NCBI RefSeq assembly: GCF_020252395.1
Contig: NZ_JADCDB010000004.1
Coordinates: 62,001 to 126,000, forward strand
DNA from: Aestuariivirga sp.
GTDB taxonomy: Bacteria > Pseudomonadota > Alphaproteobacteria > Rhizobiales > Aestuariivirgaceae
Length of the DNA: 64,000 nucleotides
Reading direction: 5' to 3'
Shown here: positions 35,659 through 50,695 of the stretch, piece by piece
How the letters are laid out: every line of letters begins with the position of its first letter
Numbering within the stretch: position 1 is the stretch's first letter
Notes under the pieces: model-generated
Seen by the model: the letters and a program-made list of their open reading frames with translations, nothing else
Told to the model about the DNA's origin: nothing
Databases searched by the model: none
Translations under genes and position numbers: made by a program

Positions 35659-36018
35659 TCATGCCAGACCGAGATGCGCCTCGAGATCGAGGCGCACGGC
35701 GACGCCCGCCGTGGCGATCACCGACACGCCGCCGCGCTCCTCGTCCGGAACGTCGAGCCCGCCCTTCACCACTTTCACAGTCACCTGCCCGTGCGGGAGG
35801 CTGGCGGCCACGGCGGCCTTGTCCACCTTGCCGGGTTGCTGCACACCGATGGTGACTTCGATCTGCATCGTCTTCGGTTCGACACCGAGGGTGCGCAGGA
35901 AGGGAAGAGACGAATGATGAATGCAGTCCTGAACCGCCCTGAGCGCGGCCTTGGTGTAGTCGCCGCCATGCATGTCGTTGCCATGGCCCATTTCGAGGAT
36001 GACGCGCTTCAGTGACAT
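35659..36018 (-). CDS. Lin0512-family protein, copy 2
   Basis: A 119-residue protein: VILEMGHGNDMHGGDYTKAA, then VTIGVQQPGKVDKAAVAASL, then VVKGGLDVPDE. These match the Lin0512 family of small alpha/beta proteins of unknown function. It is a paralogue of the gene just upstream (36018-36368), and its ATG overlaps that gene's TAA by one base (TAATG), so both are made together and could form a heteromer. Last gene of a minus-strand operon with an acetamidase-family protein, SDR and hydrolase. No catalytic role is known to me. Confidence 0.75.
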   Translation of the reverse strand: MSLKRVILEMGHGNDMHGGDYTKAALRAVQDCIHHSSLPFLRTLGVEPKTMQIEVTIGVQQPGKVDKAAVAASLPHGQVTVKVVKGGLDVPDEERGGVSVIATAGVAVRLDLEAHLGLA

Positions 36019-36368
36019 TACTTCTTCTCCGGAATATCAAGGTAGACGACGGCTGCGGCGTTTGCCATCAGCGTCAGGTTTGTGCCTTCGTCATTCATGA
36101 TCTCGAGACCACCCTCGACGACCTCGACGGCCGGCTTGCCATAGGGCAGCGCCGCTGCGACGGCGGCCTTGTCGACCAGGTGCGGCTTCGGAACGCCCAC
36201 CAGCACCTTGACGTGCATGTCATGCGGGCTGAGACCGACGGCATTGGCAATGGTGAGCGAGTTGTGCCAGAGCGCGTCTTTCAGCGCCCGGATGGCGGCT
36301 TTGGTGTAATCGGCCCCGGTGAGGTCCGTTCCCATGCCAAGTTCGACGATCATGCGTTTGAGAGCCAT
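36018..36368 (-). CDS. Lin0512-family protein, copy 1
   Basis: A 116-residue protein with MIVELGMGTDLTGADYTKAA, LVGVPKPHLVDKAAVAAALP and VVEGGLEIMND, the same pattern as its downstream partner: G.G.D..G.DYTKAA, GVP.P..VDK..VA..LP.G, VV.GGL. The conserved acid residues in G.D and the Lys in YTKAA suggest a shared ligand site. It lies 20 bases after the alpha/beta hydrolase gene. Two non-identical copies side by side point to a heteromeric complex, which is inference. Confidence 0.75.
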   Translation of the reverse strand: MALKRMIVELGMGTDLTGADYTKAAIRALKDALWHNSLTIANAVGLSPHDMHVKVLVGVPKPHLVDKAAVAAALPYGKPAVEVVEGGLEIMNDEGTNLTLMANAAAVVYLDIPEKK

Positions 36369-36388
36369 GTCTTCTCCGCTTGCACCAA

Positions 36389-37231
36389 CTATGTTGAGAG
36401 GAATGCCGAGACTTCGGCGTTGAAACGGCGGGGGTTTTCGAAGAACATGAAGTGACTTCCTCCTTCATGTTCTTCATAGATCGACGCCCTGGCGTTCGGA
36501 TTGACCGAGGCGATCCATTCTTGTGATTCAGCCGAAAAAATGCTCTTTCGGCCGCCGATGACCAGGGATGGCAGGCGCGTGTTGACGATCACGTCCCGCC
36601 AGTCGTTCAGGCAGTGATCGAACAGCAGGTCGGCGGCAGCGGCGCGCGGCATCTTCAGGTTCTCGCTGGCGATCCAGTTCAGGTCCGTCTCCGGGATGCC
36701 CGGCGTGAACATGCCTCTGAGGATCTCCTTGGCGCCCTCGACGGTCGATGTGGCGCGCACCGCATCGCAGAAGCCGGCCACTGACTGCACGTCAGGCAGG
36801 AGGCACCCAAACGACTTGCGCGCTTCAGCGTCCCATCCGGGCAGGGCGGCCACCATGGGCGCCTGATCGACGATGACCAGACGCCGCAACCTGTCCTCGC
36901 CAAAGAGATCGAGATAGCTCCAGATGACCGAGCTCCCCATGGAATGGCCGAGCACATCCACGCGATCAAGCCCAAGGGCGTCCATCGCCTCGCGAAGGTC
37001 CATCGCGAGGCGCTGGATGCGATGTCCGCAGGCGGCATCGGGGCTCTCGCCATGGCTGCGCATGTCGAGGGCGATCACACGTCTGCCCTGAGCAAGCTCC
37101 TCAATGTTCCGGCCGTACTCCGCAGCCGACTGCGACCAGCCGGGGATCATGAGGAGTGCGGGGCCGCTGCCGGCCTCCAGCGCGTTAAGCACCGTTCCGC
37201 CTGGAAGCGCGACCTGTCTGCTCTTTGCCAT
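36389..37231 (-). CDS. Alpha/beta hydrolase
   Basis: A 280-residue soluble hydrolase of the alpha/beta fold. The oxyanion strand LLMIPGWSQSAAEYG is near residue 30, the nucleophile elbow is GHSMGSSVIW, and the catalytic His is probably that of GGSHFMFFENP near the C-terminus, with an Asp in the usual place before it. No signal peptide. It could cleave an ester, lactone or carbon-carbon bond; the sequence does not say which. It sits 16 bases after the SDR gene in the acetamidase operon and so probably acts in the same pathway, under the sigma-54 activator upstream. Confidence 0.85.
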   Translation of the reverse strand: MAKSRQVALPGGTVLNALEAGSGPALLMIPGWSQSAAEYGRNIEELAQGRRVIALDMRSHGESPDAACGHRIQRLAMDLREAMDALGLDRVDVLGHSMGSSVIWSYLDLFGEDRLRRLVIVDQAPMVAALPGWDAEARKSFGCLLPDVQSVAGFCDAVRATSTVEGAKEILRGMFTPGIPETDLNWIASENLKMPRAAAADLLFDHCLNDWRDVIVNTRLPSLVIGGRKSIFSAESQEWIASVNPNARASIYEEHEGGSHFMFFENPRRFNAEVSAFLST

Positions 37232-37247
37232 ATCTGCTCCGCTGCTC

Positions 37248-38012
37248 CTAAAGCTGCACGCCCTTTGTCAGGGCGCCGTCGATCACCAGATTGGTTCCCA
37301 TGGTGAAGCTCGAGGCCGGGCTTGCGAGAAAGACAATGCCCTTGCCGATTTCCTCCGCCGTCGCCATGCGGCCCGTCGGGTTCAGCGAGAGAGCCTGCTT
37401 GAACAACTCCGGCATATTCTTTTCGATGAAATGCCAGATACCGTCCTTGAAGTAGACGTTGCCCGGCGACACCGAGTTTACCCGAATGAGCTTCGGCGCA
37501 AGCTTATGGGCAAGTCCATGCGCATAGTGGATCAGCGCCGCCTTGAAAGCCCCATAGGCAGGCGCCGTGAAGTCGATCTCGCGCCCCGATACCGATGACA
37601 CGATGACGATGGACGGCCACTTCGACGCCTCGAGATAGGGAAGTGCGGCATTCACCGTGCGCACCGTGTGCATCATGTCAATCTCGAATTCCGCGCGCCA
37701 GGACTCTTCCGTGTCCTCGGCGGCTGCCAATGCGGACACATTGGCAATGACGATATCGATGCCGCCAAGCACCTTCGCACTCTCATGCACCCAGCCCTCG
37801 AGTTCGGCCTTGTTGCCGACATCGATGGCTTGCCCGAACGATTTCACGTTCTTGCTCGCGAGGGCGGCGGCCGCATCCTTCACCTCGGCGGCGTTGCGGG
37901 CGCAGACTGAAACGTTGGAGCCTTCGTCTGCAAACATATCGGCGGCGCGCCGGCCGATGCCCTTGGTGCCGCCAGTCACAAGCACGTTCAGTCCCTTGAG
38001 GCCGAGATCCAT
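37248..38012 (-). CDS. Short-chain dehydrogenase/reductase
   Basis: A 254-residue classical SDR. The cofactor motif TGGTKGIG is at residues 14-21; the NAG-like motif is changed to IANVSA; the catalytic set Ser (SSVSG), Tyr and Lys (APAYGAFKAA) is complete; and the C-terminal GTNLVIDGALTKG is typical. It should oxidise a secondary alcohol or reduce a ketone with NAD(P). The acid after strand 2 is lacking (VCARN), which favours NADP. Second gene of the operon led by the acetamidase-family gene, 25 bases after it. In view of the aco-like genes across the regulator, a keto/hydroxy compound is a reasonable guess. Confidence 0.87.
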   Translation of the reverse strand: MDLGLKGLNVLVTGGTKGIGRRAADMFADEGSNVSVCARNAAEVKDAAAALASKNVKSFGQAIDVGNKAELEGWVHESAKVLGGIDIVIANVSALAAAEDTEESWRAEFEIDMMHTVRTVNAALPYLEASKWPSIVIVSSVSGREIDFTAPAYGAFKAALIHYAHGLAHKLAPKLIRVNSVSPGNVYFKDGIWHFIEKNMPELFKQALSLNPTGRMATAEEIGKGIVFLASPASSFTMGTNLVIDGALTKGVQL

Positions 38013-38037
38013 GTTTTCTCTCCCTGTTTTTGAGTTT

Positions 38038-39027
38038 CTATTGCCCGAGATATGTCTTCCTGATCGAGGCGCCGAGAGTGTATTTCGGGTCCACCATGTT
38101 GCCCACCCGCACGCGGCCCGCCTGGGTGAGCAGGAAATAGGCCTCGAGCTCGTCGAAGCCGTAATCCGCCGCCAGCCAGCGTGTCAGTTCGCGATAGGCA
38201 ATGCGGGCTGCATCCTCCATCGGCCGCGCGGAGCCAATGGTCATGATGAACTCCTCTGTCTCGAGCCGCGGCCATGCGATCCGCCAGTCCTTGATGAGGT
38301 CCACCTGGATCGTCGTGGTGGACGCCATCTCGACGGCCACGCCGCAGAGCTCGCCATCGCCCTGCCGGCCATGGCAGTCGCCGAGGTAGAGATAGGCATC
38401 CTTGTGCAGCACCGGGAAGTAGACGACCGCCCCCGGGGCCACATCCGGCAGGTCCATGTTGCCGCCCCAGTAGTCGGGTTGCAGCGAGAGAACCGCCTCG
38501 ATCAGCGGCGAGACGCCGAGGGTGCCAATGAACGGCTCATATGGCAGCGTGATGCGGTCATTGAACTTCACGCCCGCTTCCGTCACCTCATATTTCATCA
38601 CCCGCTCGGGGAGCGGCGGGTTCAGCATCGCCGTCTGGCCATTCGAGACGAGTCCGCCGAACTCGGGAATGAGAGCTGAGGTTCCGGCCGGCTGCGGTCC
38701 ACGTGGAACGATCGACTTGATCGAGACACAGAGCACATCGCCCGGCTCGGCGCCATCAACGGCAATAGGCCCGCATTGCGGGTTGACGAATGGAAAGTGC
38801 AACTTCTGGGAAGGCAAGTCATCCACGGTTCTGATCGCTCCAGCGAAGGCGTCCTCGGTCTCGGCGATGACAATGTCGCCGGGCCTGATCGCCATGACGG
38901 GCTTCGCGTAGGGCCCATAGACATAGTGATAGTCGCCCTGGACTGCCTTGTTCAGAAGGTGCGTCCTGCCCTCCACACCGCGGGCGACCGCCTTGCGTCC
39001 CATGTAGCTATTGGTCAGCCAACTCAT
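38038..39027 (-). CDS. Acetamidase/formamidase family protein
   Basis: A 329-residue FmdA/AmdA-family protein with GDIVIAETEDAFAGAI, NPQCGPIAVDGAEPGDVLCV, GGNMDLPDVAPGAVVYFPV and DCHGRQGDGELCG, the family's metal- and substrate-site segments. Members hydrolyse short amides to ammonia and acid in the cytoplasm; substrate here is open. ATG 39027 is used since it precedes the conserved fold; ATG 39042 is close by. It is the first gene of a five-gene minus-strand operon and has a -24/-12 promoter about 60-75 bases upstream. A second family member lies at 58438-59343. Confidence 0.85.
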   Translation of the reverse strand: MSWLTNSYMGRKAVARGVEGRTHLLNKAVQGDYHYVYGPYAKPVMAIRPGDIVIAETEDAFAGAIRTVDDLPSQKLHFPFVNPQCGPIAVDGAEPGDVLCVSIKSIVPRGPQPAGTSALIPEFGGLVSNGQTAMLNPPLPERVMKYEVTEAGVKFNDRITLPYEPFIGTLGVSPLIEAVLSLQPDYWGGNMDLPDVAPGAVVYFPVLHKDAYLYLGDCHGRQGDGELCGVAVEMASTTTIQVDLIKDWRIAWPRLETEEFIMTIGSARPMEDAARIAYRELTRWLAADYGFDELEAYFLLTQAGRVRVGNMVDPKYTLGASIRKTYLGQ

Positions 39028-39084
39028 ATTGCCAGTCCCCATTCTTGCAACTGCGAACGCACGGATGCGTACAGCCGCTACCCC

Positions 39085-39101
39085 ATGCAGGTCGTGTGCC
39101 A
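39085..39101 (-). promoter_or_regulatory. Sigma-54 promoter of the acetamidase-family operon
   Basis: On the minus strand TGGCACACGACCTGCAT: -24 TGGCAC and -12 CTGC with exactly ten bases between the GG and GC pairs. One mismatch (C for T) in the -12 element. The predicted start of transcription is about 48 bases before ATG 39027. It lies between this operon and the divergent sigma-54 activator gene. Confidence 0.65.
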
Positions 39102-39211
39102 CTGTGCAATGCGGCAGTTTTATTGCGCTGCGGAAGGAGGCTTCGGCGCGCTTGATGCTTGACACACGATTTTTTCGCGTTTGATGTCCGCTTCAGACAG
39201 AGGAGGCTGCG

Positions 39212-41158
39212 ATCTCATCCTCGCACACGGATCACATCAAGGAACTCATTCGCGCCGCGGAGGGCGGTCCGACTGAGCGAGATCCGCTTATTCTGGAATC
39301 ATGGCGGCGCTGCGTGGGCAATCACCGGCTTGACCCAACCGTGCTTCGGCCTGCTGTCATCGTTGAAGATCCCCGGCTTCGGGAGCATCGCGATGCGATG
39401 GAGGAACTCTTGCGCACCGCGCGCTTTGGCGTCGAGGCGCTCTACCGGCAAGTGGCAGGGCTCGGCTACGTCGTTCTCCTGAGTGACAATCAGGGCATCA
39501 CAGTCGATTACATCGGCGATCAAGCGACGACCGACTACCTTCGGGCGGCCGGCCTCTATATGGGTGCAGATTGGAACGAGGCGCGCGCCGGGACCAACGG
39601 CACGGGCACCTGCATCGCCACCGGAGAATCCCTCACCATTCACCAGAGTGACCATTTCGACGCCACGCATATTCCGTTGACCTGCACCGTGGCGCCGATC
39701 TTCGATCCCGTTGGCAATCTTTCCGCCGTGCTGGACATTTCGGCCCTGCGTTCACCACGCGAAAAGTCAAGCCAGTTCCTTGCCTTGCAAATGGTCAGGA
39801 ACTTCGCCCACCGCATCGAAACAGCCAGTTTCATCCGGTCCTGCTCGCGCAACTGGATCGTCAAGCTGACTGCCAACCAGGCGTTGGCGGAGGTCGACAC
39901 CGACTATGTGCTGGCGCTCGATTCATCAGGACGTATCGCGGGTTTCAATCACCATGCCCGCCAGCTTCTGGCGGAGGAGATGAAGACCGGCTGGCGAGAC
40001 GCCAAGCAGGCGCTTGGCCGGCCCATTTCTGACTTTCTGGACTGCGAGATCGACGGCCTTACCCGATTTGCCAGGCCGAACTCCATCGAACGCAACGTGA
40101 TGAGGCTCACAGGCTCGGGGCGGAGCTTGTTCATCCAGGTCGTGCCGCCGGCAACGATCCGCGTCCTGCCGGCGCCGGTCCAGCAGGAGGAGAGCAGGAT
40201 ACCAAAGGCCCTGAAGGCGGTGGCGGGCGAAGATCCCTCGATACAACGCAACCTTAATAAGCTTTCGCGCCTGCTCAATACCAACATAAGTGTCCTGGTG
40301 AGCGGCGAAACCGGGACGGGCAAGGAATACCTCGCCAAGGCGATCCATCAGTCCTGCGTCCGGGCCCAGGGACCCTTTGTTCCCGTCAATTGCGGCGCAC
40401 TGCCGGAAAACCTGATTGAGAGCGAACTCTTTGGCTATGAGGGCGGCTCGTTCACCGGCGCCCTGAGCAAGGGCAAGAAGGGCCTAATCCGCGAGGCGCA
40501 TGGCGGAACGCTGTTCCTCGATGAAATCGGCGACATGCCGCTCGGCTCGCAGACGCGGCTCCTCCGCGTGCTCGCCGAGCGGGAGGTGATGCCCATCGGC
40601 GGGACACGGCCCTATCCCGTTGACATGAGGGTCATTGCGGCGTCCCACCGGGACTTGCTCGGCATGGTGAAGAAGGGCTTGTTCCGCGAGGATTTGTATT
40701 TCCGCCTCAATGGCGTAACCATCACACTTCCGCCCCTGCGCGATCGTGTCGATTTGGCTTGGCTTGTTGCGCAATTGCTGGAGAGCCGCGCCTATCCCGA
40801 TGGATCGGCGCGCAGCCTGTCGTCCAAGGCGCTTGGCGTCCTGTCTTCCTATGGGTGGCCCGGCAATATCCGTGAACTCGTCAACGTCATCGATTTTGCA
40901 TGTGCGGTCGCCAGCGATCCGGAGATTGGGCTGGATGATCTGCCGGATCAGGTGTTCCGGCGCATCGACGGTGACGGCGAGGCCAGCGCTGCGGATGCGG
41001 CAAGGTCCAACAGCAAGCAAGCGGCGTCCTTGCGAGAAGATCTGCGCCGTACCGGCTGGAACATATCCGCCACCGCGCGCCTGCTGGGTGTCGATCGCAC
41101 GACGTTGCATCGCCGCATGCGGCGATTGGGGGTCACGCTGCCGCCGCGCAGCACGTAA
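39212..41158 (+). CDS. Sigma-54-dependent activator, AcoR type, apparent ATC start
   Basis: A 648-residue enhancer-binding protein. N-terminal signalling region (about 1-300) with LESWRRC at the start, a GAF-type domain with ARAGTNGTGTCIATG and a short PAS-like segment; central AAA+ domain with GETGTGKEYLAKAIH, a sigma-54 contact loop GSFTGA (usual GAFTGA), GTLFLDEIGDMP and the arginine fingers; C-terminal Fis-type helix-turn-helix (NISATARLLGVDRTTLHRRM). The conserved N-terminus begins before any ATG, GTG or TTG in frame; a TGA closes the frame at 39182. The only well-placed initiation site is ATC 39212, five bases after a perfect AGGAGG. If a standard start is required, GTG 39314 would remove 34 conserved residues. 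Confidence 0.85.
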   Translation: MSSSHTDHIKELIRAAEGGPTERDPLILESWRRCVGNHRLDPTVLRPAVIVEDPRLREHRDAMEELLRTARFGVEALYRQVAGLGYVVLLSDNQGITVDYIGDQATTDYLRAAGLYMGADWNEARAGTNGTGTCIATGESLTIHQSDHFDATHIPLTCTVAPIFDPVGNLSAVLDISALRSPREKSSQFLALQMVRNFAHRIETASFIRSCSRNWIVKLTANQALAEVDTDYVLALDSSGRIAGFNHHARQLLAEEMKTGWRDAKQALGRPISDFLDCEIDGLTRFARPNSIERNVMRLTGSGRSLFIQVVPPATIRVLPAPVQQEESRIPKALKAVAGEDPSIQRNLNKLSRLLNTNISVLVSGETGTGKEYLAKAIHQSCVRAQGPFVPVNCGALPENLIESELFGYEGGSFTGALSKGKKGLIREAHGGTLFLDEIGDMPLGSQTRLLRVLAEREVMPIGGTRPYPVDMRVIAASHRDLLGMVKKGLFREDLYFRLNGVTITLPPLRDRVDLAWLVAQLLESRAYPDGSARSLSSKALGVLSSYGWPGNIRELVNVIDFACAVASDPEIGLDDLPDQVFRRIDGDGEASAADAARSNSKQAASLREDLRRTGWNISATARLLGVDRTTLHRRMRRLGVTLPPRST

Positions 41159-41160
41159 TT

Positions 41161-41207
41161 CCACATGTGGCGTGTGTGGCGCCACAGGTGTTGCGCACAG
41201 CGCAACA
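41161..41207 (+). promoter_or_regulatory. Cluster of palindromes, putative activator binding sites
   Basis: Three perfect inverted repeats lie just after the regulator gene and about 100-140 bases before the sigma-54 promoter: CCACATGTGG (41161), TGTGGCGCCACA (41175) and TGTTGCGCACAGCGCAACA (41189-41207, 8-bp arms). The position suits enhancer sites for the AcoR-type activator. Confidence 0.55.
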
Positions 41208-41302: not shown

Positions 41303-41318
41303 TGGCATCGTTATTGCA
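41303..41318 (+). promoter_or_regulatory. Sigma-54 promoter of the aco-like operon
   Basis: TTGGCATCGTTATTGCA contains the -24 TGGCA and -12 TTGC elements with ten bases between GG (41304-41305) and GC (41316-41317). Expected start of transcription near 41329, about 30 bases before the acoX-like ATG. Confidence 0.75.
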
Positions 41319-41358: not shown

Positions 41359-42408
41359 ATGGGAAGCGCCATCGGCATCATCGCCAATCCAGTCTCCGCG
41401 CGTGACATCCGCCGGGTGATCGCCAATGCGACTGCCTTGCAGATCACCGACCGCGCCAACATCGTGTTGCGCATCCTGTCCTGCGTGAAGGCCTGCGGCG
41501 TCGATCATGTCTGGATGATGCCGGAGAACGGCGGCATCCGGCACCATGTCCGCCGCGGCATCGACCGGGCGGAGAACCAGGGTCAGACGCATTTCCCCAG
41601 GGTCGAACATCTCGACTACAAGATTTCCGGCACGGTGGACGACACGCTGAAGGCGGCCCGCCTGATGAAAGAGAAGGGTGTGGCGGCCATTGTGGTGCTA
41701 GGTGGCGACGGCACGCACCGTGCGGTGGTCACCGCCTGCGGCGATGTTCCCATCGCCGGCGTCTCGACCGGCACCAACAACGCCTTCCCGGAGCATCGCG
41801 AGCCCACCATCACCGGGCTTGCCGTGGGCCTTGCGGTAACGGGCAAGGTGCCGGCCTCGCATGCCTATCTTCCCAACAAGAAGATCACGGTGCGCGTGAA
41901 CGGCCATGAGGAGATCGCGCTGGTGGACGTGGCGGTGGTGACCGAGCGATATATTGGCGCGCGCGCCCTGTGGCGCACCGAGACGTTCCGCGAGCTCTTC
42001 GTGACCTTCGCCGACCCCGAGGTGATCGGCATGTCGGCGATTGCCGGGCTGCTCAGCCCCGTCTCGCGGCTCGATGAGGGCGGGTTGCATGTGCGCCTCG
42101 CGCCCGAGGACGAGGCCAGCATCGTTCTCGATACGCCCATAGCGCCTGGTTACATGCGTGGCATCGGCATCCGCGACTATGCGCCGATGAAGCCCAACCA
42201 CAAATACCGTCCGTCGATTGCCGACGGCTCTATTGCGCTCGACGGCGAGCGCGAAGTCTCCTTCACGCGCGACGACGATGTGACGATCGAACTCGTGCCC
42301 AACGCCTTCAGGACCGTGAACGTCAGCGGCTGCATGCAATACGCCGCGCGCCACGGCCTGATGAGAATGAAGCCAGACCAGAAACTGAAGAGAGTGGGAG
42401 GACAATGA
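41359..42408 (+). CDS. acoX: AcoX-like protein (ATP-NAD kinase fold)
   Basis: A 349-residue protein of the NAD-kinase-like fold that accompanies acetoin dehydrogenase operons. It begins IGIIANPVSARDIRR and has the nucleotide motif VVLGGDGTHRAV and STGTNNAFPE, corresponding to the GGDG and NE/D motifs of NAD kinases. Its exact role in acetoin catabolism is not settled. ATG 41359 has GGAAG upstream and sits 30 bases after the predicted sigma-54 start site. Its stop overlaps the E1-alpha start by four bases. Confidence 0.85.
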   Translation: MGSAIGIIANPVSARDIRRVIANATALQITDRANIVLRILSCVKACGVDHVWMMPENGGIRHHVRRGIDRAENQGQTHFPRVEHLDYKISGTVDDTLKAARLMKEKGVAAIVVLGGDGTHRAVVTACGDVPIAGVSTGTNNAFPEHREPTITGLAVGLAVTGKVPASHAYLPNKKITVRVNGHEEIALVDVAVVTERYIGARALWRTETFRELFVTFADPEVIGMSAIAGLLSPVSRLDEGGLHVRLAPEDEASIVLDTPIAPGYMRGIGIRDYAPMKPNHKYRPSIADGSIALDGEREVSFTRDDDVTIELVPNAFRTVNVSGCMQYAARHGLMRMKPDQKLKRVGGQ

Positions 42409-43406
42409 TGACTGCTCCAAACAGCACGGCCGGGATATTCCCCCTGGATAAACCCGGACTTCTGCAAGCCTATCGCACCATGCGCACTATTCGCGAGTTC
42501 GAGGAGCGCCTGCACGCCGACTTCGCCAAGGGCGACATTCCGGGCTTCGTCCACCTCTATGCGGGCGAAGAGGCCGCCGGCACCGGCATCATGATGCACC
42601 TCGAGGACAAGGACCGCATCGCCTCCACCCACCGTGGCCATGGCCACTGCATCGCCAAGGGTGTGGACACCAGCGGCATGATGGCGGAGATCTACGGCAA
42701 GGTGTCGGGCTCCTGCCGCGGCAAGGGCGGTTCCATGCACATCGCCGACTTGTCCAAGGGCATGATGGGCGCCAACGGCATCCTCGGCGCCGGCGCGCCG
42801 CTGGTCTGCGGTGCTGCACTTGCCGCCAAGTACCGCGGCGATGGCGGTGTCGCCATTTCCTTCGTCGGGGACGGCGCCTCGAACCAGGGCACCTTCCTCG
42901 AGAGCCTCAACCTCGCCGCCGTGTGGAACCTTCCCGCCATCTTCGTGGTGGAGAACAACGGCTATGCCGAATCCACCTCGCGCGATTATGCGGTGGCGGT
43001 GGACAGCTTCGTCGACCGCGCCGCGGGCTTCGGCCTTCCCGGCGTCACGGTGGACGGCCTCGACTTCTTCGCCGTTTACGAGGCGGCGGGCGAAATCATC
43101 AAGCGGGCGCGCGAGGGCGGTGGACCCGCGCTGCTCGAATGCAAGATGATCCGCATGTATGGCCACTTCGAGGGCGACCAGCAGACCTACCGCGCCAAGG
43201 GCGAGCTTGACGACATCCGCGCCAACAAGGACTGCCTCAAGATGTTTACCCAGCGTGTGATGGAGGCTGGCGTGATTAGCCGGGGCGAACTCGATGCCAT
43301 CGACCGCGAAGTCGTGGCCGAGATTCAGGAAGCCTCCGCTTTCGCCAAAGCTGCACCGCTGCCCACCGCGGCGGACCTTACCACCGACGTCTATGTGAAC
43401 TACTGA
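42405..43406 (+). CDS. acoA: Acetoin-type dehydrogenase E1 alpha (TPP) subunit
   Basis: A 333-residue thiamine-diphosphate E1 alpha subunit. The ThDP motif runs from VGDGASNQG to ENN about 28 residues later (VVENNGYAES); the phosphorylation-loop-like HRGHGHCIAKG and the CRGKGGSMHIAD segment are typical of acetoin and 2-oxo-acid E1 chains. With the next gene it decarboxylates or cleaves a 2-keto substrate and passes the acyl group to lipoyl-E2. Its start overlaps the acoX stop; acoB follows 20 bases later. The aco name reflects operon content (AcoX and hydrolase-type E2); the true substrate could be another hydroxyketone. Confidence 0.88.
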   Translation: MMTAPNSTAGIFPLDKPGLLQAYRTMRTIREFEERLHADFAKGDIPGFVHLYAGEEAAGTGIMMHLEDKDRIASTHRGHGHCIAKGVDTSGMMAEIYGKVSGSCRGKGGSMHIADLSKGMMGANGILGAGAPLVCGAALAAKYRGDGGVAISFVGDGASNQGTFLESLNLAAVWNLPAIFVVENNGYAESTSRDYAVAVDSFVDRAAGFGLPGVTVDGLDFFAVYEAAGEIIKRAREGGGPALLECKMIRMYGHFEGDQQTYRAKGELDDIRANKDCLKMFTQRVMEAGVISRGELDAIDREVVAEIQEASAFAKAAPLPTAADLTTDVYVNY

Positions 43407-43426: not shown

Positions 43427-44434
43427 ATGGCACGCAAAATCAGCATGCGCCAGGCAATCAACGAGGCGCTCGACCAGGAAATGGCCCGCGACCCATCGGT
43501 GTTCGTGATGGGTGAAGACATCGTCGGCGGCGCCGGCGGCATGGGCGAAATCGACGCCTGGGGCGGCGTCCTCGGCGTCACCAAGGGGCTCAACGCCAAA
43601 TATCCGGGCCGGCTGCTCGATACGCCGCTGTCGGAGTCGGCCTATATCGGCGCCGCCGTGGGCGCCGCGGCCTGCGGCATGAGGCCCGTGGCGGAACTGA
43701 TGTTCCTTGACTTCATGGGCGTCTGCTTCGACCAGATCTTCAACCAGGCGGCCAAATTCCGCTACATGTTCGGCGGCAAGGCGGAAACACCCGTCGTCAT
43801 CCGCGCCATGGTGGGTGCGGGCTTCCGTGCGGCCGCCCAGCACAGCCAGATGCTCACCCCGCTGTTCGTGCACATCCCCGGTCTCAAGGTGGTGTGCCCG
43901 TCCAACGCCTATGACGCCAAGGGCCTGCTGATCCAGTCGATCCGCGACAATGACCCGGTGATCTTCTGCGAGCACAAGAATCTCTATGGCGCGGAAGCCG
44001 ACGTGCCGGCCGAGTCCTACGCCATCCCCTTCGGCGAGGCGAATGTGGTGCGTGACGGCAAGCATGCCACCATCGTGACCTATGGCATGATGGTCCAGCG
44101 CGCCATGGACGCGGCGGCCGCACTCGCCAAACAGGGCGTCGAGTGCGAGGTCATCGACCTGCGCACGCTCTCGCCCATCGACTGGGATACGGTGATCGAC
44201 TCCGCCGAGCGCACCGGCCACGTGATCTGCGTGGATGAGGCGCATCCGCGCTGCTCCATCGCGGCGGACGTCTCCGCCATGGTCACCCAGGAGTGCTTCA
44301 AGGCCCTGAAGGGCCCGATCCAGATGGTCACCGCGCCGCACACGCCGGTGCCCTTCTCGCCGGTGCTGGAAGACCTCTACATCCCCTCGGCCGAAGCCAT
44401 CGCCAAGGCGGTGAAGAAGTCGATGGCGCATTGA
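43427..44434 (+). CDS. acoB: Acetoin-type dehydrogenase E1 beta subunit
   Basis: A 335-residue E1 beta subunit: MRQAINEALDQEM start, VMGEDIVGGAGGM, the LLDTPLSESAYIGAAVGAA active-site helix region, and the transketolase C-domain DLRTLSPIDWDTV with GHVICVDEAHP. It forms the alpha2beta2 E1 with the upstream gene. GAAGGAGAG precedes the ATG. It lies between acoA and the E2 gene, spacing 20 and 28 bases. Nothing is missing from the fold. Confidence 0.9.
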   Translation: MARKISMRQAINEALDQEMARDPSVFVMGEDIVGGAGGMGEIDAWGGVLGVTKGLNAKYPGRLLDTPLSESAYIGAAVGAAACGMRPVAELMFLDFMGVCFDQIFNQAAKFRYMFGGKAETPVVIRAMVGAGFRAAAQHSQMLTPLFVHIPGLKVVCPSNAYDAKGLLIQSIRDNDPVIFCEHKNLYGAEADVPAESYAIPFGEANVVRDGKHATIVTYGMMVQRAMDAAAALAKQGVECEVIDLRTLSPIDWDTVIDSAERTGHVICVDEAHPRCSIAADVSAMVTQECFKALKGPIQMVTAPHTPVPFSPVLEDLYIPSAEAIAKAVKKSMAH

Positions 44435-44462: not shown

Positions 44463-45578
44463 ATGAGTGACCAGCGCATTGTGCCGATCGTCATGCCCAA
44501 GTGGGGCCTCTCCATGAAGGAGGGAAAGGTGACGGGCTGGCTCCTCGAGGACGGCTCCCGGATCAATCCGGGAGACGCCATCCTCGAGGTCGAGACGGAC
44601 AAGATCGCGGGTGCGGTCGAGGCGCATGAAAGCGGCGTCCTGCGCCGGCGGGTCGGAGAGCCGGATACCGTCTATCCAGTGAAGTCGCTCTTGGGCGTCA
44701 TCGCCGACCCGTCGGTGCCGGAGGAGGAGATCGACGCCTATGTCTCGTCCTTCGTCACGCCCTCGGCGGACGAGGACGAGGCGGAGCAGGGCCCGAAATA
44801 CGAGTATGCCGAAACCTCCTCTGGCAAACTCCGCTATGCCAAGCGCGGTTCGGGAGATGAAACGGCGATCCTCATCCATGGCTTTGGCGGCGACCTCGAC
44901 AACTGGCTGTTCAACATCGACGCCCTCGGTGAATCGGCCACCGTTTACGCCCTTGACCTGCCGGGTCACGGCCAGTCGGCAAAGTCTCTCGACAAGCCCG
45001 GCCTTGGCGCGCTGGCCGATGCTGTCGCGAGCTTCATGACGACAGTCGGGATCGACAGCGCCCATCTGGTCGGACACTCCATGGGCGGGGCTATTGCCAT
45101 GCACATGGCGGCCAGCGACCCCGGCAAGGTGGACTCGCTCACCCTCATCTGCTCGGCTGGTTTGGGCCGCGAGATCGGCTCCTATGTCGACAGTTACCTC
45201 GCCGCCCAGGGCCGCAAGGACCTGAAGCCGGTGCTTGAGCAGCTCTTCGCCGACAAGAGCCTCGTCAGCCGCCAGCTCGTTGATGACGTGCTGAAATACA
45301 AGCGGCTCGATGGCGTCGAGCCCCTGCTGAAGGACCTCGCCGCAGCGCTCTTCGCCGGCCAGACCCAGCAGGACCAGCCGGGCGCCAGGCTCGCGGCGGG
45401 CAAAGCCCCGCCGGCGCTTGTCATCTGGGGCAAGCAGGACGAGATCATCCCGCATTCCCACGCCCAGAACCTGCCTGGCGCCAAGGTCGCCGTCTTCGAC
45501 GGCGCCGGCCACATGGTCTTCATGGAAAAGGCCAGCGATGTGAATGCGCTGATCAAGGCTCACATCGCTGGCTCGTAG
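44463..45578 (+). CDS. acoC: Lipoyl-domain alpha/beta hydrolase E2 (AcoC-like)
   Basis: A 371-residue E2 of the acetoin dehydrogenase kind. Residues 7-80 are a lipoyl domain (MPKWGLSMKEGKV, lipoyl Lys47 in VETDKIAG). Unlike pyruvate E2 it lacks an acetyltransferase CAT domain; instead, from about residue 125, it is an alpha/beta hydrolase with AILIHGFGGDLDNW, nucleophile elbow VGHSMGGAIAMH and the closing His in GAGHMVFMEK. No peripheral-subunit-binding domain is visible. Such an E2 is the mark of AcoC. No E3 (dihydrolipoamide dehydrogenase) gene follows, so E3 must come from elsewhere. ATG 44463 is chosen over 44445 because GGACAGAG precedes it. Confidence 0.88.
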   Translation: MSDQRIVPIVMPKWGLSMKEGKVTGWLLEDGSRINPGDAILEVETDKIAGAVEAHESGVLRRRVGEPDTVYPVKSLLGVIADPSVPEEEIDAYVSSFVTPSADEDEAEQGPKYEYAETSSGKLRYAKRGSGDETAILIHGFGGDLDNWLFNIDALGESATVYALDLPGHGQSAKSLDKPGLGALADAVASFMTTVGIDSAHLVGHSMGGAIAMHMAASDPGKVDSLTLICSAGLGREIGSYVDSYLAAQGRKDLKPVLEQLFADKSLVSRQLVDDVLKYKRLDGVEPLLKDLAAALFAGQTQQDQPGARLAAGKAPPALVIWGKQDEIIPHSHAQNLPGAKVAVFDGAGHMVFMEKASDVNALIKAHIAGS

Positions 45579-45653
45579 CCGATACCTTCGCAAGCCGCTG
45601 AAGCGGCCACAGAAAGGAGGAGCGCAGATCACGGAAGTTTGAGACGTTCCGCG

Positions 45654-45692
45654 AGGCGCCGTAGCGGCATGATGCCCTGGCGGCGCCTGTTT
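45654..45692 (+). terminator. Hairpin between the E2 gene and the ABC importer genes
   Basis: AGGCGCCG (45654-45661) pairs perfectly with CGGCGCCT (45681-45688); the loop holds a smaller GGCAT/ATGCC hairpin; GTTTG follows. It may be an attenuator or partial terminator that lowers or separates expression of the importer. Confidence 0.45.
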
Positions 45693-45733
45693 GATCGACA
45701 GCAGAGATAAAATCCATATGGGAGAAAACACCT

Positions 45734-47263
45734 ATGTTCTCGATACCGAAAAACGCCGTTTACCGGAGAATCAACCGCAGAAAGTTCCTTGAATTGGGCG
45801 GCGGCGCCGCCACTGCTCTCGGTGCTGGCGGCCTGACCCTTGGTCTCGGCTCCACCATCACCCGCTCCAAGGTTCAGGCCGCGTCGACCGACGATGCGAA
45901 GTGGAAGCAATATGCCGGTTCGAAGCTTGTCTTCATGTCGGAGAATACCCCTCCGTCCTTCGCGATCCGCGACAATATCAAGGCCTTTACCGATAAAACC
46001 GGCATCGAAGTCACAATTCTCACCGACGACCTTCCGGTGGTGCAGCAAAAGGTCGGCATCGACCTGCGCGGCGGCAAAGCGGACTACGTGCTGAACTATG
46101 TGCAGGACAAGCCGATCGGTTCGCCCTTCGCGGATTTCTACGCTGACCTCACGCCGATGTTCGGCGACGAAACCCTGCCGCAGGACCCGGAAGGTTATGG
46201 TGACGACGCCTGGTTCACAAACTTCCTTTCCGCTTGCGGCCGCTTCTACCAGAAGGGCAAGATCATCGCTCTTCCCTATGACGCGGCAATCGCCTGTACC
46301 TTCTACCGTCAGGATCTCTTCGAGGCGAACAGCAAGGACTTCGAAGCCGAGTACGGATACAGGCTGGAGTTCAACAAGGATTCGACATGGCAGAACGTGA
46401 TCGACATGGCCACCTTCTTCAAGAAGGCCAAGGAGTCCGGCAAGGATGTCCCCTATGGCTATGCCCAGCATCAGGGCTCCTTCGCGTGGACCACGCAGCT
46501 TGACATCCAGCGCTTCCTCTTCGCCAATGGCCGCTGGATGGACTGGAATATCGACGACGTCTATGGCTCGAAAGAACCGGGCAAGACGAACTGGGGCGAT
46601 GAGCAGTCTGTGTTCATGCTGCAGAAGTTCAAGGCACTGGCGGATGTCTGCCATCCGGACAACCTTGCCAACGGCACGCTTGAGCTCAACACCGTCTACC
46701 AGTCCGGCAATATCGCGATGCAGACGCAGTATCACGAATTTGCGGCCTCGATCGAGGACGAGTCCAAGTCGCGTGCGGCCGGCGGCAAGACCGCCTACGC
46801 GCCCTGCCCGAAGGGCGATCCGAAGTGGATCAAGAACGGCGGCGAGCCGGTGAACGGCACGAATTGCGGCATCGGCGGCATCGGCATCAACGGCAATGCT
46901 TCCGACGACCTCAAGCGCGCGGCCTACATCTTTGCAATCTGGTCGGTGTCCCAGGACAACCAGTACAACGTGCTCAAGGGCCTCGGCGGCACGCCGACAC
47001 GCAAGTCCGTGCTTGAACGCGAAGACGTCAAGAAGGCCGCGCAGCGTCCGACCACCATGCCGAACGCGCTGACCTTCGACGCCGTCTACAACTTCGGCAT
47101 CAAGGATCCGAACTTCGTACTCGGCCCGAAGATCCCCAACGCCAACGAGTATCACTCGATCCTCGCGGGCGAGGTTCAGAAGTGCCTGTCGAACGAGCTG
47201 TCTCCCGAAGAGGCCGCGAAGTCGATCCAGACCCAGCTCGACGAGCTGAACGGCGCGGGCTAA
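45734..47263 (+). CDS. Exported solute-binding protein of a sugar-type ABC importer (Tat signal)
   Basis: A 509-residue family 1 extracellular binding protein. The N-terminus NRRKFLELGGGAATALGAGG is a twin-arginine signal, so it is exported folded. The mature part has the two-lobe pattern of maltose/glycerol-3-phosphate-type proteins with YVLNYVQDKPIG, ALPYDAAIACTFYRQDLFEA and a Trp-rich middle (RWMDWNIDDVYG). It is longer than most (usual 420-450). GGGAGAA precedes the ATG. The importer genes follow directly and the aco-like enzymes lie just upstream, so it probably brings in their substrate or its precursor; ligand unknown. Confidence 0.85.
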   Translation: MFSIPKNAVYRRINRRKFLELGGGAATALGAGGLTLGLGSTITRSKVQAASTDDAKWKQYAGSKLVFMSENTPPSFAIRDNIKAFTDKTGIEVTILTDDLPVVQQKVGIDLRGGKADYVLNYVQDKPIGSPFADFYADLTPMFGDETLPQDPEGYGDDAWFTNFLSACGRFYQKGKIIALPYDAAIACTFYRQDLFEANSKDFEAEYGYRLEFNKDSTWQNVIDMATFFKKAKESGKDVPYGYAQHQGSFAWTTQLDIQRFLFANGRWMDWNIDDVYGSKEPGKTNWGDEQSVFMLQKFKALADVCHPDNLANGTLELNTVYQSGNIAMQTQYHEFAASIEDESKSRAAGGKTAYAPCPKGDPKWIKNGGEPVNGTNCGIGGIGINGNASDDLKRAAYIFAIWSVSQDNQYNVLKGLGGTPTRKSVLEREDVKKAAQRPTTMPNALTFDAVYNFGIKDPNFVLGPKIPNANEYHSILAGEVQKCLSNELSPEEAAKSIQTQLDELNGAG

Positions 47264-47336
47264 TCGCTCCGCTACACATTGACCGGCGGCGGCAATCTGC
47301 CGCCGGTGCAAATCCCCTCAACCATCGAGCGAGCCG

Positions 47337-48356
47337 ATGACAGACGCATCCATGCCAAATCGAGGCGGGGCGGCCCGGAAGACTTCGGGCGGCAGCCGAA
47401 ACATGGACCTTTTCCGTGTCCGCCAGTTTCCGGACAGCGTGGAGTCGCGTCCGGTTCCCATGTCCGTCACGGAACCGGCCTCTCTCAATAAGCCGCGCTC
47501 GAAGAGCTTCTACTTCTGGCTCATGGCGCCTGCCATCCTGGTTCTGGCGTTCATATCGATCTATCCGTTCTTCTGGATGATCTACATGAGTCTCCACGAC
47601 GTTGACATCGGCCACGTCGAGTGGAACAACTTCGCCAATTTCATCAAGCTGCCGTCCGACACACGCTTCCTCATGGGGTGGGTTTTGCTCGCTCAGTACA
47701 GCGCCATGTGTCTGACGCTGCAGATCGTCATTGGCGTGTTCCTGGCGCTGGCCCTCAACGGAACACGGCTTGAGAAGATTCTTGTCACGACGCTGTTGAT
47801 GCCAATGATGATGGCGCCTCTGGTCGCCGGCATGGTGTGGTATTTCCTCTATAACGGAACGTTCGGCTGGTATCACTGGCTGCTGCAGAGCCTTGGGATC
47901 CTCGGGCCGAAGTCGATCCTCGCCAGCTCGAATACGGCGATGATCGGTCTCGTGCTTGTCGACGTTTGGCAATGGACGCCGCTCATTACGCTCATCACCC
48001 TTGCCGGCCTGAAGCGCGTTCCGCAGGATCAGCTTGAAGCCAACATGGTCGACGGGGCTTCTCCGTTCCGGAACTTCGTTTCCGTTACGCTGCCGAATCT
48101 CTATCCGGTGTTGCTGATCGCGATCATGCTCCGGTTCATGGATAATTTCCGCTTCATCGACTCGATTCTCGTGCTCACCGGCGGCGGCCCCGGCAATGCG
48201 ACCAAGATCCTGCCCGTCTACCTCTTCGAGGTGTCGTTCAAGTTCTTCAAGCTGGGCCGTGGCGCCGCGATCGCACTGATCCTTCTCGTTGTCACCATCA
48301 TTCTCGGAAAACTCCTGGTGCGTGTGTTCGACCGCCAGCAGCCAAGCAAGGTGTAA
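47337..48356 (+). CDS. ABC permease, MalF type
   Basis: A 339-residue inner-membrane protein with six helices after an N-terminal cytoplasmic region of about 60 residues. The coupling loop is EANMVDGASPFRNFVSVTLP, and LVLTGGGPGNATKILPVYLFE is the usual MalF-type segment. The first ATG gives an unusually long polar N-terminus; internal ATGs (for example at the MDLFRV or MSVTEP segments) are possible starts. Three bases separate its stop from the next permease, which forms the other half of the pore. Confidence 0.88.
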   Translation: MTDASMPNRGGAARKTSGGSRNMDLFRVRQFPDSVESRPVPMSVTEPASLNKPRSKSFYFWLMAPAILVLAFISIYPFFWMIYMSLHDVDIGHVEWNNFANFIKLPSDTRFLMGWVLLAQYSAMCLTLQIVIGVFLALALNGTRLEKILVTTLLMPMMMAPLVAGMVWYFLYNGTFGWYHWLLQSLGILGPKSILASSNTAMIGLVLVDVWQWTPLITLITLAGLKRVPQDQLEANMVDGASPFRNFVSVTLPNLYPVLLIAIMLRFMDNFRFIDSILVLTGGGPGNATKILPVYLFEVSFKFFKLGRGAAIALILLVVTIILGKLLVRVFDRQQPSKV

Positions 48357-48359
48357 GCA

Positions 48360-49238
48360 ATGGCGTCCCGCGAAGTCATTCAGTACGAAACGCCGTTGTC
48401 GAGGGCGTTCAGGTGGTTCTCCGCCGTCTTCCTCGCCTTCTATGTGGTGTGGACGGTGCTGCCGCTGTTCATCATGTTTATGTCGTCCTTCAAGGACCTG
48501 CTCGAGGCGTTTAAACTTCCGGCGGTGGGAGACTGGGCAGGGGTCACCGTGTTTTTTGAATTCACGCCGACAACCAAGCACTACTATGAGCTCTTCGCCC
48601 GTCTTGGCTTCACAACCTACCTGTTCAATTCGCTCGTCGCGGCGGGCGGGTCCGCGGTGGTGTCGGTCATCCTGGGGTCGATGTGCGCCTATTCGCTGTC
48701 GCGCATCGATTTCAAGGGCAAGGGCGATCTCTTCTTCTGGATAATCTCGACCCGCATGGCGCCAGTCGTCGCAGTCATGGTTCCTCTCTACTGGATATTC
48801 CGGCAGTTGGACCTTGTCGGGACGCTTCCGGGCCTCATTCTCGCATACACGACCTTCAACCTCCCCTTCGCCATCTGGATATTGAAGGGCTTCTTCGACA
48901 ATGTGCCCTACGCCATCGAGGAGGCGCAGATGATCGATGGCGCAACCAGGTTCCAGGCGCTTCGTGCGATCCTGCCACTGGTTGCACCGGGCATTGGCGC
49001 TTTCGTCGTGCTGTGCATACTCTTTGCGTGGAATGACTACCTGTTCGCCGCCATCATCGGTTCGGGTGGCGCCAAGACCTTGCCGGCCGCGACGCGCGAA
49101 TTGGTGCAGCCCCAGAACATCCAGTGGGGGCAGATCATGGCGGCCGGCGTCGTCACGACGCTGCCGATGATGTTCCTCGGCCTCGTCATCCGTAAGTATC
49201 TCGTCACGGGCCTCACCATGGGCGCGGTCAAGGAATAG
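48360..49238 (+). CDS. ABC permease, MalG type
   Basis: A 292-residue inner-membrane protein with six helices and the MalG-type coupling loop EEAQMIDGATRFQALRAILP. The N-terminal FSAVFLAFYVVWTVLPLFI helix and the final VTGLTMGAVKE are typical of the family. It pairs with the upstream permease and the downstream ATPase. The start follows the previous stop by three bases. Confidence 0.9.
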   Translation: MASREVIQYETPLSRAFRWFSAVFLAFYVVWTVLPLFIMFMSSFKDLLEAFKLPAVGDWAGVTVFFEFTPTTKHYYELFARLGFTTYLFNSLVAAGGSAVVSVILGSMCAYSLSRIDFKGKGDLFFWIISTRMAPVVAVMVPLYWIFRQLDLVGTLPGLILAYTTFNLPFAIWILKGFFDNVPYAIEEAQMIDGATRFQALRAILPLVAPGIGAFVVLCILFAWNDYLFAAIIGSGGAKTLPAATRELVQPQNIQWGQIMAAGVVTTLPMMFLGLVIRKYLVTGLTMGAVKE

Positions 49239-49250
49239 CAGGAGCTCGCA

Positions 49251-50345
49251 ATGGCAAAGGTGTCATTCAGGAACGTGTGGAAGAAATACGGCGACATGCC
49301 CGCCGTCAAGGATCTCAACATCGAGTGTCCGGACGGATCGTTCCTGTCGGTTCTCGGTCCGTCAGGATGCGGCAAATCATCGACGATGCGCATGGTTGCG
49401 GGCCTTGAGCATATCACGTCCGGGCAGATCCTGTTCGACGAGCGCCCGATCAACGGCCTGGCTCCCAAGGATCGGGACGTGGCCATGGTGTTCGAGAACT
49501 ATGCGCTTTATCCGCACAAGAGCGTTTACGAAAACATGGCGAACCCCCTGAAGTTACGGGGGCAGGATGCTTCGGTTATCAAGGAGCGGGTAACGGCTGC
49601 CGCCAAGCTCCTCGAGATCAATCATCTTCTTGAACGCCGTCCACAGGAATTGTCCGGCGGTCAGAAGCAGCGCGTTGCCATTGGGCGCGCCATCGTGCGG
49701 GAGCCGAATCTGTTTTTGTTCGACGAGCCGATCGCCCATCTTGACGCCAAGCTGCGCGCTCACATGCGTGGCGAAATCAAGCATCTGCAGCGCACGCTGG
49801 GAACGACGATGATCTACGTGACCCACGATCAGCTCGAAGCCATGTCGATGGCGGACACGATCGCTGTCATGCATGATGGGGAGTTGCAGCAACTCGGCAC
49901 GCCGCGGGAAGTTTACAATCATCCGGTAAATGCCTGGGTGGCCGGTTTTGTCGGCGAACCGGCGATGAACTTCGTTGACGTCGGGGTGGAGGACCGCGCC
50001 GGACGCGCGCACTTCATTCACCAGAATTTCGCAGTTCCCGTCACCGAGGAACAGCAGCGCCGGCTCTCCGATGGCTCGCGCGGGAGCGCATTGCGCATGG
50101 GCGTGCGGCCGGACGCTCTTTCGATTTCGATGACGAAGCCATCGGACAGTTGCATTACGGGCAAGATCTTCGTGACCGAGCTGCTTGGCGGAGACATGAT
50201 TGTCGATGTCGATCTGGACGATTGCCGCATCCGGGTAAAGACCTCCACCGAGTTTTCGGGCGAAGAAGGTCAGACTTGCTACATGACGGTCAACACGAAC
50301 AAGTGGCATGCGTTCTCGAAGGAGAACGGCAAGGCATTCTTCTAG
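49251..50345 (+). CDS. ABC ATPase, MalK/UgpC type
   Basis: A 364-residue ATPase with Walker A LGPSGCGKSSTMRM, Q-loop AMVFENYALYPHKSVYENMA (Gln of the usual VFQ replaced by Glu), signature LSGGQKQRV, Walker B LFLFDEPIAHLDAKL and the His of VTHDQLEAMS, followed by a C-terminal TOBE regulatory domain (from about residue 235). The VFE form of the Q-loop occurs in UgpC/MalK-type proteins. It energises the two permeases upstream. CAGGAG precedes the ATG. Fourth gene of the importer set, 14 bases before the AhpD-like gene. Confidence 0.9.
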   Translation: MAKVSFRNVWKKYGDMPAVKDLNIECPDGSFLSVLGPSGCGKSSTMRMVAGLEHITSGQILFDERPINGLAPKDRDVAMVFENYALYPHKSVYENMANPLKLRGQDASVIKERVTAAAKLLEINHLLERRPQELSGGQKQRVAIGRAIVREPNLFLFDEPIAHLDAKLRAHMRGEIKHLQRTLGTTMIYVTHDQLEAMSMADTIAVMHDGELQQLGTPREVYNHPVNAWVAGFVGEPAMNFVDVGVEDRAGRAHFIHQNFAVPVTEEQQRRLSDGSRGSALRMGVRPDALSISMTKPSDSCITGKIFVTELLGGDMIVDVDLDDCRIRVKTSTEFSGEEGQTCYMTVNTNKWHAFSKENGKAFF

Positions 50346-50359
50346 GCAAGGAGCACGTC

Positions 50360-50695
50360 ATGGCTGACGCAAAGGAAAAACTCGAGGCAGTCAATAGCCG
50401 CCTCATGGGGCTGTTCAAAGCCGAGAAGCAGACGATGATGGCCTTCAACAGCCTCGCCGTGGCGGCCACGAGACCCGGAAAGATCTCCGCCGCGCTGAAG
50501 GAATTGACGGCGGTGGCCATTGCCGTCGCAAAGGGTTGCGAGGACTGCATCATTTATCATGCGTCCGCGGCCAGGAAGCACGGCGCCTCGCGCGAAGAGT
50601 TGATTGAGATGCTTGCGGTTTCGGTTGAGATGTCGGGAGGACCTGGTGCTGTCTATGCCGCAAAGGCGCTGGAGGCATTTGACCAGTTGACATGA
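50360..50695 (+). CDS. AhpD-like / carboxymuconolactone decarboxylase family protein
   Basis: A 111-residue helical protein with the AhpD-type redox motif CEDCIIYH (CXXC plus His four residues on) and the GASREELIEMLAVSVEMSGGP segment of the CMD family. Members act as peroxidase partners or decarboxylases; the CXXC form reduces disulfide or lipoyl groups in some proteins (AhpD is re-reduced by lipoyl-E2). That makes its place after a lipoyl-E2 operon suggestive. CAAGGAG precedes ATG 50360. Last gene of the right-hand operon; transposase remnants follow. Confidence 0.85.
   Translation: MADAKEKLEAVNSRLMGLFKAEKQTMMAFNSLAVAATRPGKISAALKELTAVAIAVAKGCEDCIIYHASAARKHGASREELIEMLAVSVEMSGGPGAVYAAKALEAFDQLT

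Follow-up and report, generated by a model that had tools for sequence, protein, structure and literature searches.

A candidate sigma-54 regulon combining an acetoin-dehydrogenase-type operon, a MalFGK-type importer and an FmdA-family amidase operon in Aestuariivirga sp.

The DNA analysed here (the window) is a stretch of 64,000 nt from Aestuariivirga sp. (GCF_020252395.1, contig NZ_JADCDB010000004.1, positions 62,001-126,000, forward strand), and the locus under study, at positions 35659-50695 of the window, consists of two oppositely directed operons flanking the gene of an AcoR-type activator. Profile searches and gene calling confirmed fifteen genes, all of which had been listed by a first-pass annotation made from the sequence alone. 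The activator (39212..41158, plus strand) carries GAF, sigma-54 AAA+ and Fis helix-turn-helix domains (PF01590, PF00158 and PF02954, respectively). The right operon, on the plus strand, opens with the gene pattern of acetoin dehydrogenase operons, namely acoX, E1 alpha, E1 beta and E2, continues with a MalFGK-type importer (binding protein, two permeases and ATPase), and ends with an AhpD-like gene. The NAD-kinase-like product of acoX (41359..42408; PF01513, 56 bits) shows 58% identity to a gene annotated as acetoin catabolism protein X, E1 alpha (42405..43406) is a thiamine diphosphate (ThDP) dehydrogenase (PF00676, 342.9 bits), E1 beta (43427..44434) scores 337 bits with NF006667 (cut-off 321), and E2 (44463..45578), a lipoyl domain fused to an alpha/beta hydrolase, scores 457.7 bits with the acetoin-dehydrogenase E2 model NF011457 (cut-off 307). 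Together with the GAF/AAA+/Fis activator and a -24/-12 element before acoX, these subunits match the make-up of an acetoin dehydrogenase regulon of the AcoR type. Genes for E3 or an aldehyde dehydrogenase, which are frequent though not universal in such clusters, were not found by profile searches among the fifteen genes. The importer comprises a solute-binding protein (45734..47263; PF13416, 56 bits), permeases 1 (47337..48356; PF00528, 65.7 bits) and 2 (48360..49238; PF00528, 59.4 bits), and a MalK/UgpC-type ATPase (49251..50345), which at 422.2 bits falls below the cut-off (432) of the UgpC sn-glycerol-3-phosphate ATPase model NF008653. The binding protein had no sequence match in the PDB at 0.001 and one, distant match (31%) in the plasmid collection. 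The G+C content is 0.59-0.60 across the importer genes (46001-50000) and 0.61-0.64 in the flanking windows, and this could reflect a later arrival of the importer. The last gene (50360..50695) encodes an AhpD-core/carboxymuconolactone decarboxylase family protein (TIGR00778, 52.9 bits, cut-off 27.8).

The left operon, on the minus strand, contains genes for an FmdA-family amidase, a short-chain dehydrogenase/reductase (SDR), an alpha/beta hydrolase and two Lin0512 proteins, lin1 and lin2, in this order. The FmdA/AmdA-family amidase (38038..39042; PF03069, 109 bits; closest PDB entry 5ubu, 413.6 bits) reaches 82.5 bits with the formamidase equivalog NF045496, far under the cut-off of 500, and membership is therefore claimed for the wider family PF03069 only; its start was set at the ATG at 39042 because the listed GTG at 39165 would sit upstream of the promoter. 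The SDR oxidoreductase (37248..38012; PF13561, 146.7 bits) falls short of NF052558, the model for meso-2,3-butanediol dehydrogenase (138.5 bits, cut-off 270), and several general SDR models score higher. The alpha/beta hydrolase (36389..37231; PF00561, 74.4 bits) is followed by lin1 (36018..36368; PF09585, 112.9 bits) and lin2 (35659..36018; PF09585, 111.9 bits; TIGR02058, 67.5 bits), both of which exceed the TIGR02058 cut-off and belong to the Lin0512 family by PF09585 and TIGR02058 alike. The motif GxGxDxHG is kept in lin2, and its histidine is replaced by threonine in lin1.

A scan of all 64 kb with the consensus TGGCAC-N5-TTGCW returned just two matches with one mismatch, one ahead of each operon. 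The left element (TGGCACACGACCTGCA, 39086..39101, minus strand) ends 44 bases ahead of the fmdA start codon (39042), and the right element (TGGCATCGTTATTGCA, 41303..41318, plus strand) ends 41 bases ahead of that of acoX (41359). Two-mismatch matches numbered 23 against 33.6 expected, a count not above chance, and the promoter case therefore rests on the two sites, their position and their conservation. When GG and GC were required, five sites in the window reached at least 9/10, both operon promoters among them and three elsewhere. The left element occurs as TGGCAC-N5-NTGC at the homologous place in 5/5 genomes; among three further left gaps, TGGCAT-N5-ATGC (8/10) is present in two and the third shows no site at 8/10, which gives the C or T form in homologous position in 7/8 genomes. 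The right element was found at 9/10 or better at nine of ten aco loci and at 2/2 further loci. The palindrome TGTTGCG-N5-CGCAACA (41189..41207, plus strand), a probable AcoR enhancer site, lies 95 bases before the right element; it is the sole perfect match in 64 kb (at three mismatches, 31 matches against 16.6 expected) and recurs with at most one mismatch ahead of acoX in 7/10 loci and in 2/2 further loci. The first-pass annotation had placed an AcoR-type activator between two operons with -24/-12 promoters, and both elements were indeed located and are conserved in homologous loci. The AcoR-like palindrome, in contrast, was found for the right operon and not for the left. That AcoR also controls the left operon is likely, since the element is the same, the regulator is adjacent and the layout is similar in an Alsobacter-like metagenome-assembled genome (MAG; L203, titled Alsobacter soli, described below).

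The acoR frame extends upstream of the listed GTG, and the probable start is an ATC at 39212 with GGAGG upstream. A start of this kind also seems to be used in L018, L165, L015, L017, L273, L277 and L278 (ATT in L017 and L278), while the same codon position is ATG in six other acoR genes and GTG in two; L120 and L227 fail to align there. A purine-rich ribosome site is kept ahead of the start (GGAGG in the window). The window, L018 and L015 have no ATG, GTG or TTG from the upstream stop to the place of window position 39314, L273 has an additional ATG two codons upstream of the start, and a TTG lies one codon downstream in L017. Keeping a non-canonical start could be a way to throttle the regulator.

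Presence counts given below come from tblastn maps, and FmdA neighbourhoods from clusters made with a codon-usage gene caller and named by one representative each; this caller overlooks genes in some loci (e.g., L205, L210 and L216). The set occurs, whole or in pieces, in eight genomes of the same lineage: on one contig in G000, G006 and G019 and likewise in G693, where the contig ends before ahpD; split over two contigs in G011, G714 and G716, with the hydrolase missing from G714; and in rearranged pieces, with E1 not seen, in G699. G011 and G715 (the genome of L166) appear to be one genome. Where acoX would be expected after acoR, G699 (L278) has a gene for a MalK-like ATPase (46%). The hydrolase is absent from the related set L273, which retains the remaining genes. 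In the Alsobacter-like MAG (L203), E2, E1 beta, E1 alpha, acoX, ahpD and acoR face an arm composed of binding protein, permeases 1 and 2, ATPase, fmdA and SDR, with -24/-12 elements of 10/10 before the importer-fmdA-SDR arm and 9/10 before the ahpD-acoX arm. Its fmdA and SDR are each 74% identical to those of the window and have a 47% hydrolase behind them, a Lin pair follows some 5 kb past E2 on this contig, and the binding-protein frame has two stops in the signal-peptide part. In two further MAGs (L213 and L221), E1 beta, E1 alpha, acoX, ahpD, lin2 and lin1 face the importer on contigs that both end inside the binding-protein gene, and fmdA-SDR lies on other contigs (L270 and L271) behind transaldolase-like, lipoyl and hydrolase genes (domains checked in L270).

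Conserved co-occurrence, proposed by the first-pass annotation as the check on its single pathway, was confirmed in part. The genes stay together despite rearrangement (G000, G006, G019, G693 and L203; split in G011, G714 and G716), the Lin pair alone stands beside aco genes in L213, L221 and G001, and the combination of importer and ThDP E1 recurs; however, linkage is rare, with fmdA beside acoX only in the window's own genome and G693 among the 26 order genomes that have the FmdA orthologue. Where seen, the linkage of the left and right genes is real. No printed description of such a gene set was found in searches of an open-access library, judged mainly from the beginnings of abstracts, in agreement with the first-pass annotation, which knew of none.

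Orthologues of the binding protein were found in 8/297 genomes of the order and at 59 loci of the genome contig collection, the latter by a scan with two short peptide patterns that detects close relatives only. With identity thresholds of 40% (45% for pyruvate dehydrogenase [PDH]-type E1), these 59 loci have acetoin-type E1/E2 in 21 cases, an FGGY kinase in 25 (15 of them with PDH-type E1), PDH-type E1 alone in one, and no partner in 12, among which L173 and L214 are long-flanked. Acetoin-type E1 and FGGY kinase were never found together (0/59), an exclusion that holds for loci and not for genomes, G628 having a kinase locus plus acoXABC elsewhere. Flanks of at least 6 kb in front of the binding protein and 7 kb behind it are available at 29 loci, which comprise 14 with kinase and PDH-type E1, seven with kinase alone, seven with acetoin-type E1 and one with none; a ThDP E1 is thus present at 21/29 (7 acetoin-type, 14 PDH-type), and a PDH-type E1 past the flank would escape detection. 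In a binding-protein tree of 60 rows built by a quick method, the partner label requires three changes, two of which the starred branches force; the group that contains the window falls inside a starred set of 16 that includes six kinase loci. The tree of E1 has 28 rows, 18 of them importer-linked and 10 from among the importer-free loci encountered, and linkage to the importer requires four changes on it (bootstrap 3-4), two of them again forced by starred branches. On the best tree, importer-linked rows are in three places: nine rows with L211 nearby; L203, L213 and L221; and the group of the window, to which G001 belongs and which joins G628 (95/92), neither G001 nor G628 having the importer at that locus. 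These trees suggest that the importer family and acetoin-type E1 have met more than once, and they are silent on gain versus loss. An FmdA of at least 54% identity occurs in 15/29 importer genomes (acetoin-type E1, 11/17; kinase, 3/8; others, 1/4, this being G699), which hints at a kinship-confounded association between amidase and importer. A flavin monooxygenase of about 600 amino acids with a SnoaL-like N-terminus lies near the importer in L170, L182, L183, L185, L201, L209 and L220 (domains checked in L170). A plasmid of Chelatococcus daeguensis (L224:2207-7453) has acoR-acoXABC beside a sugar-type importer of a different family, which is LacI-linked.

FmdA orthologues of at least 62% identity were detected in 26/297 order genomes, the next matches being at 40%, and acoX in 10/297; the two lie on separate contigs in G628 and G482. 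At 25 FmdA loci (own omitted), 15 have a urea/amide-type ATP-binding cassette (ABC) transporter, five have nitrile hydratase genes and five neither, while a nitrilase-like gene is present at nine, an SDR orthologue at 14 and acoX at one (G693). UrtA-like and ANTAR-domain genes accompany FmdA in most transporter and nitrile-hydratase loci, and an SDR orthologue lies near FmdA in many Hyphomicrobiales. In L123, L134, L135, L137 and L138, the FmdA orthologue is near nitrile hydratase and UrtA-like genes (ANTAR genes in four of five), which suggests that it may act there as the amidase for the nitrile hydratase product. A general link between FmdA and E1 was dropped, E1 beta lying within 8 kb at 2/25 FmdA loci, one in the same genus and one with another kind of E1.

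Lin0512 genes are present in 29/385 genomes of the class (own included), with a visible tandem pair in 26 of the 29, and in 6/25 genomes of the genus (own included), four of which carry the set. Outside the window's own genome, neither aco genes nor fmdA were seen near Lin0512 at the class loci read (0/29, some contigs being short), and the pairs have no common neighbours in these loci. Lin0512 as part of a core was accordingly dropped: the pairs are widespread, they share no neighbours, and two loci of the same genus (L016 and L020) have a pair without aco genes. A general Lin-E1 link was also dropped, with E1 beta within 8 kb at 1/29 Lin loci. In all tandem pairs read (window 35659-36368; L051-L079), the first protein is devoid of the GxGxDxHG histidine and the second has H or Y, and three lone Lin0512 genes that were read retain H. 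This pattern fits an asymmetric two-chain protein. The AlphaFold model of lin2 (predicted local distance difference test, pLDDT, 90) has as its best PDB match 3c8l, with weak matches to FtsZ and chorismate mutase. The 3c8l protein (Nostoc Npun_R1471) has the same family and fold (template-modelling score, TM, 0.82; 38% identity), and its own title says that the function is unknown. A search of an open-access library under the family name listed no publication on it.

Three known kinds of loci resemble parts of the set. The AcoR-acoXABC operons on plasmids of Chelatococcus, Paracoccus, Azospirillum and Caballeronia and at L145-L149 of the order share the regulator type, acoX, E1 alpha/beta and the lipoyl-hydrolase E2; an AhpD-like gene is also present in Paracoccus, where a gene annotated as belonging to this family lies beside acoABC and butanediol dehydrogenase, and in L148. 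The importer-free loci L145-L149 have the -24/-12 element in 4/5 and the palindrome (at most two mismatches) in 3/5. Unlike these operons, the window has no E3, no aldehyde dehydrogenase and no gene passing NF052558, its importer lies between E2 and ahpD, and it has an extra sigma-54 operon with amidase, SDR, hydrolase and the Lin0512 pair. The operons for short-chain amide uptake with UrtA-like and ANTAR genes (15 loci among L124-L144) have an orthologous FmdA (62-69%) and often the orthologous SDR as well; their transporter is of the five-gene urea/amide type and they have no aco genes, whereas the window has a MalFGK-type importer and AcoR. Finally, FGGY-kinase loci such as those of Rhodobium orientis (L193) and Taklimakanibacter lacteus (L172) have an orthologous importer (binding protein 73 and 85%, respectively), with kinase, VOC, class II aldolase, HAD and RpiR genes, many with PDH-type E1 and some with a transaldolase-like gene, in place of the acetoin-type E1 of the window.

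The reading favoured here, to which we assign about an even chance, is that the whole locus forms a single sigma-54 regulon dedicated to a compound that is imported and probably polyhydroxylated, combining amidase/SDR steps with acetoin-type cleavage. From its family and context, the MalFGK-type importer would take up the compound; the amidase and the SDR, judged by their families, would act on an amide- and hydroxyl-bearing intermediate; and the resulting alpha-hydroxyketone or diketone would be cleaved by E1 and the lipoyl-hydrolase E2 to acyl-CoA and an aldehyde, the products of known acetoin chemistry, with E3 presumably provided from elsewhere. The order of steps that we infer is trimming, oxidation and cleavage. 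AcoR with sigma-54 would activate the right operon through the palindrome at 41189 and probably the left operon by way of the -24/-12 element there, and the Lin0512 pair and the AhpD-like protein may be accessory. A pathway in which uptake, cleavage of an amide and oxidation of an alcohol lead to the splitting of an alpha-hydroxyketone is the most economical account that draws on every conserved part. Gene content, the promoter elements and recurrent linkage are established from the sequences, whereas the substrate, the sequence of reactions and the control of the left side are deduced. A polyhydroxylated, sugar-like substrate is suggested by the kinase alternative at the same importer family, and the fact that some relatives retain a large part of the set, differently ordered, points to an undescribed degradation pathway. 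Methylerythritol or a 1-deoxyketose was considered as substrate and dropped; a literature search listed nothing relevant.

Several observations weigh against a single regulon and pathway. FmdA orthologues lie apart from acoX in 24/26 order genomes, being beside it only in the window's own genome and G693, and an FmdA of at least 54% is lacking in 6/17 importer genomes with acetoin-type E1 (G703, G705, G706, G708, G709 and G711). The window's E1 is closest to importer-free acoXABC loci and not to the other importer-linked E1 group, and G001 has acoR-acoXABC next to a Lin pair without importer, fmdA or SDR. The hydrolase is missing from the set in L273. The palindrome is absent within three mismatches from 6/6 left gaps (fmdA/lin1 to acoR; one being the acoR-lin1 gap of G001) and within two mismatches from three further left gaps. 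Between lin1 and the binding-protein gene, L213 and L221 showed no -24/-12 element at 8/10; a scan upstream of the binding protein at nine further loci that combine importer and acetoin-type E1 gave an element of at least 9/10 at one of them (L216) and none at the remaining eight.

A related proposal, held more tentatively and at somewhat below an even chance, is that one imported compound has two routes, either through FGGY kinase and aldolase (often with a PDH-type complex) or unphosphorylated through the acetoin-type ThDP/lipoyl complex, with amidase/SDR and the two-chain Lin0512 included. If this were true, Lin0512 would gain a metabolic setting. The locus could instead be composite: an acetoin/2,3-butanediol operon (acoX, E1, E2 and the AhpD-like gene) would have acquired both an importer and a separate amide-nitrogen module, these being co-regulated or merely adjacent, without a common substrate. 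In its favour, E1 genes at importer-free loci share 75-85% identity with those of the window (92 and 96% in G001), one such locus being that of Paracoccus, which also has butanediol dehydrogenase and an AhpD-like gene; FmdA orthologues are found in amide-transport (15/25) or nitrile-hydratase (5/25) loci; no AcoR-like palindrome was found on the left side; and the hydrolase is absent from L273. Against it, L203 has the parts side by side in another order, each arm preceded by a -24/-12 element, and the left element, in its C or T form, keeps its place in 7/8 genomes. A composite origin is a serious possibility, although less likely than the favoured reading. Plain acetoin/butanediol catabolism, with the SDR as butanediol dehydrogenase and the importer and amidase incidental, would agree with the E2 passing the acetoin-dehydrogenase model, with acoX-E1 genes and a palindrome like those of importer-free aco loci, and with the 138.5 bits of the SDR, albeit under 270 and below several general SDR models. 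It is unlikely, given that the importer family accompanies acetoin-type E1 at 21/59 loci and elsewhere the FGGY kinase, often with PDH-type E1, that SDR orthologues accompany FmdA (14/25 FmdA loci), and that aldehyde dehydrogenase and E3 are absent from the cluster. Neighbouring genes of no common function, with the left -24/-12 match due to chance, are very unlikely, for although linkage of Lin pairs with aco genes or fmdA is lacking at 29/29 class loci and three of the five sites of at least 9/10 in the window lie elsewhere, the left element is conserved in position and a related gene set recurs in other orders.

The locus is a real variant of the acetoin regulon, rare and kept where present. 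Acetoin-type complexes are regarded as acetoin enzymes, and their repeated pairing with one importer family suggests that the substrate of some may be a different, imported one. A direct handle is offered by the binding protein, whose ligand would name the compound and hence the roles of amidase, SDR and perhaps the Lin0512 pair.

A second FmdA-family gene is present in the window at 58426-59343, after a gene with a B12-binding domain (57522-58400). A fused E1 alpha-beta protein is encoded elsewhere in the same genome (L282:6346-10839, 832 amino acids) and in L129 (11274-15804, 819 amino acids), the two being 73% identical; after the fused E1 come genes for a lipoyl protein of very small size, a hydrolase and a regulator-like protein, and in L129 the fused gene is placed past the orthologue of FmdA and ahead of an FGGY-like kinase.

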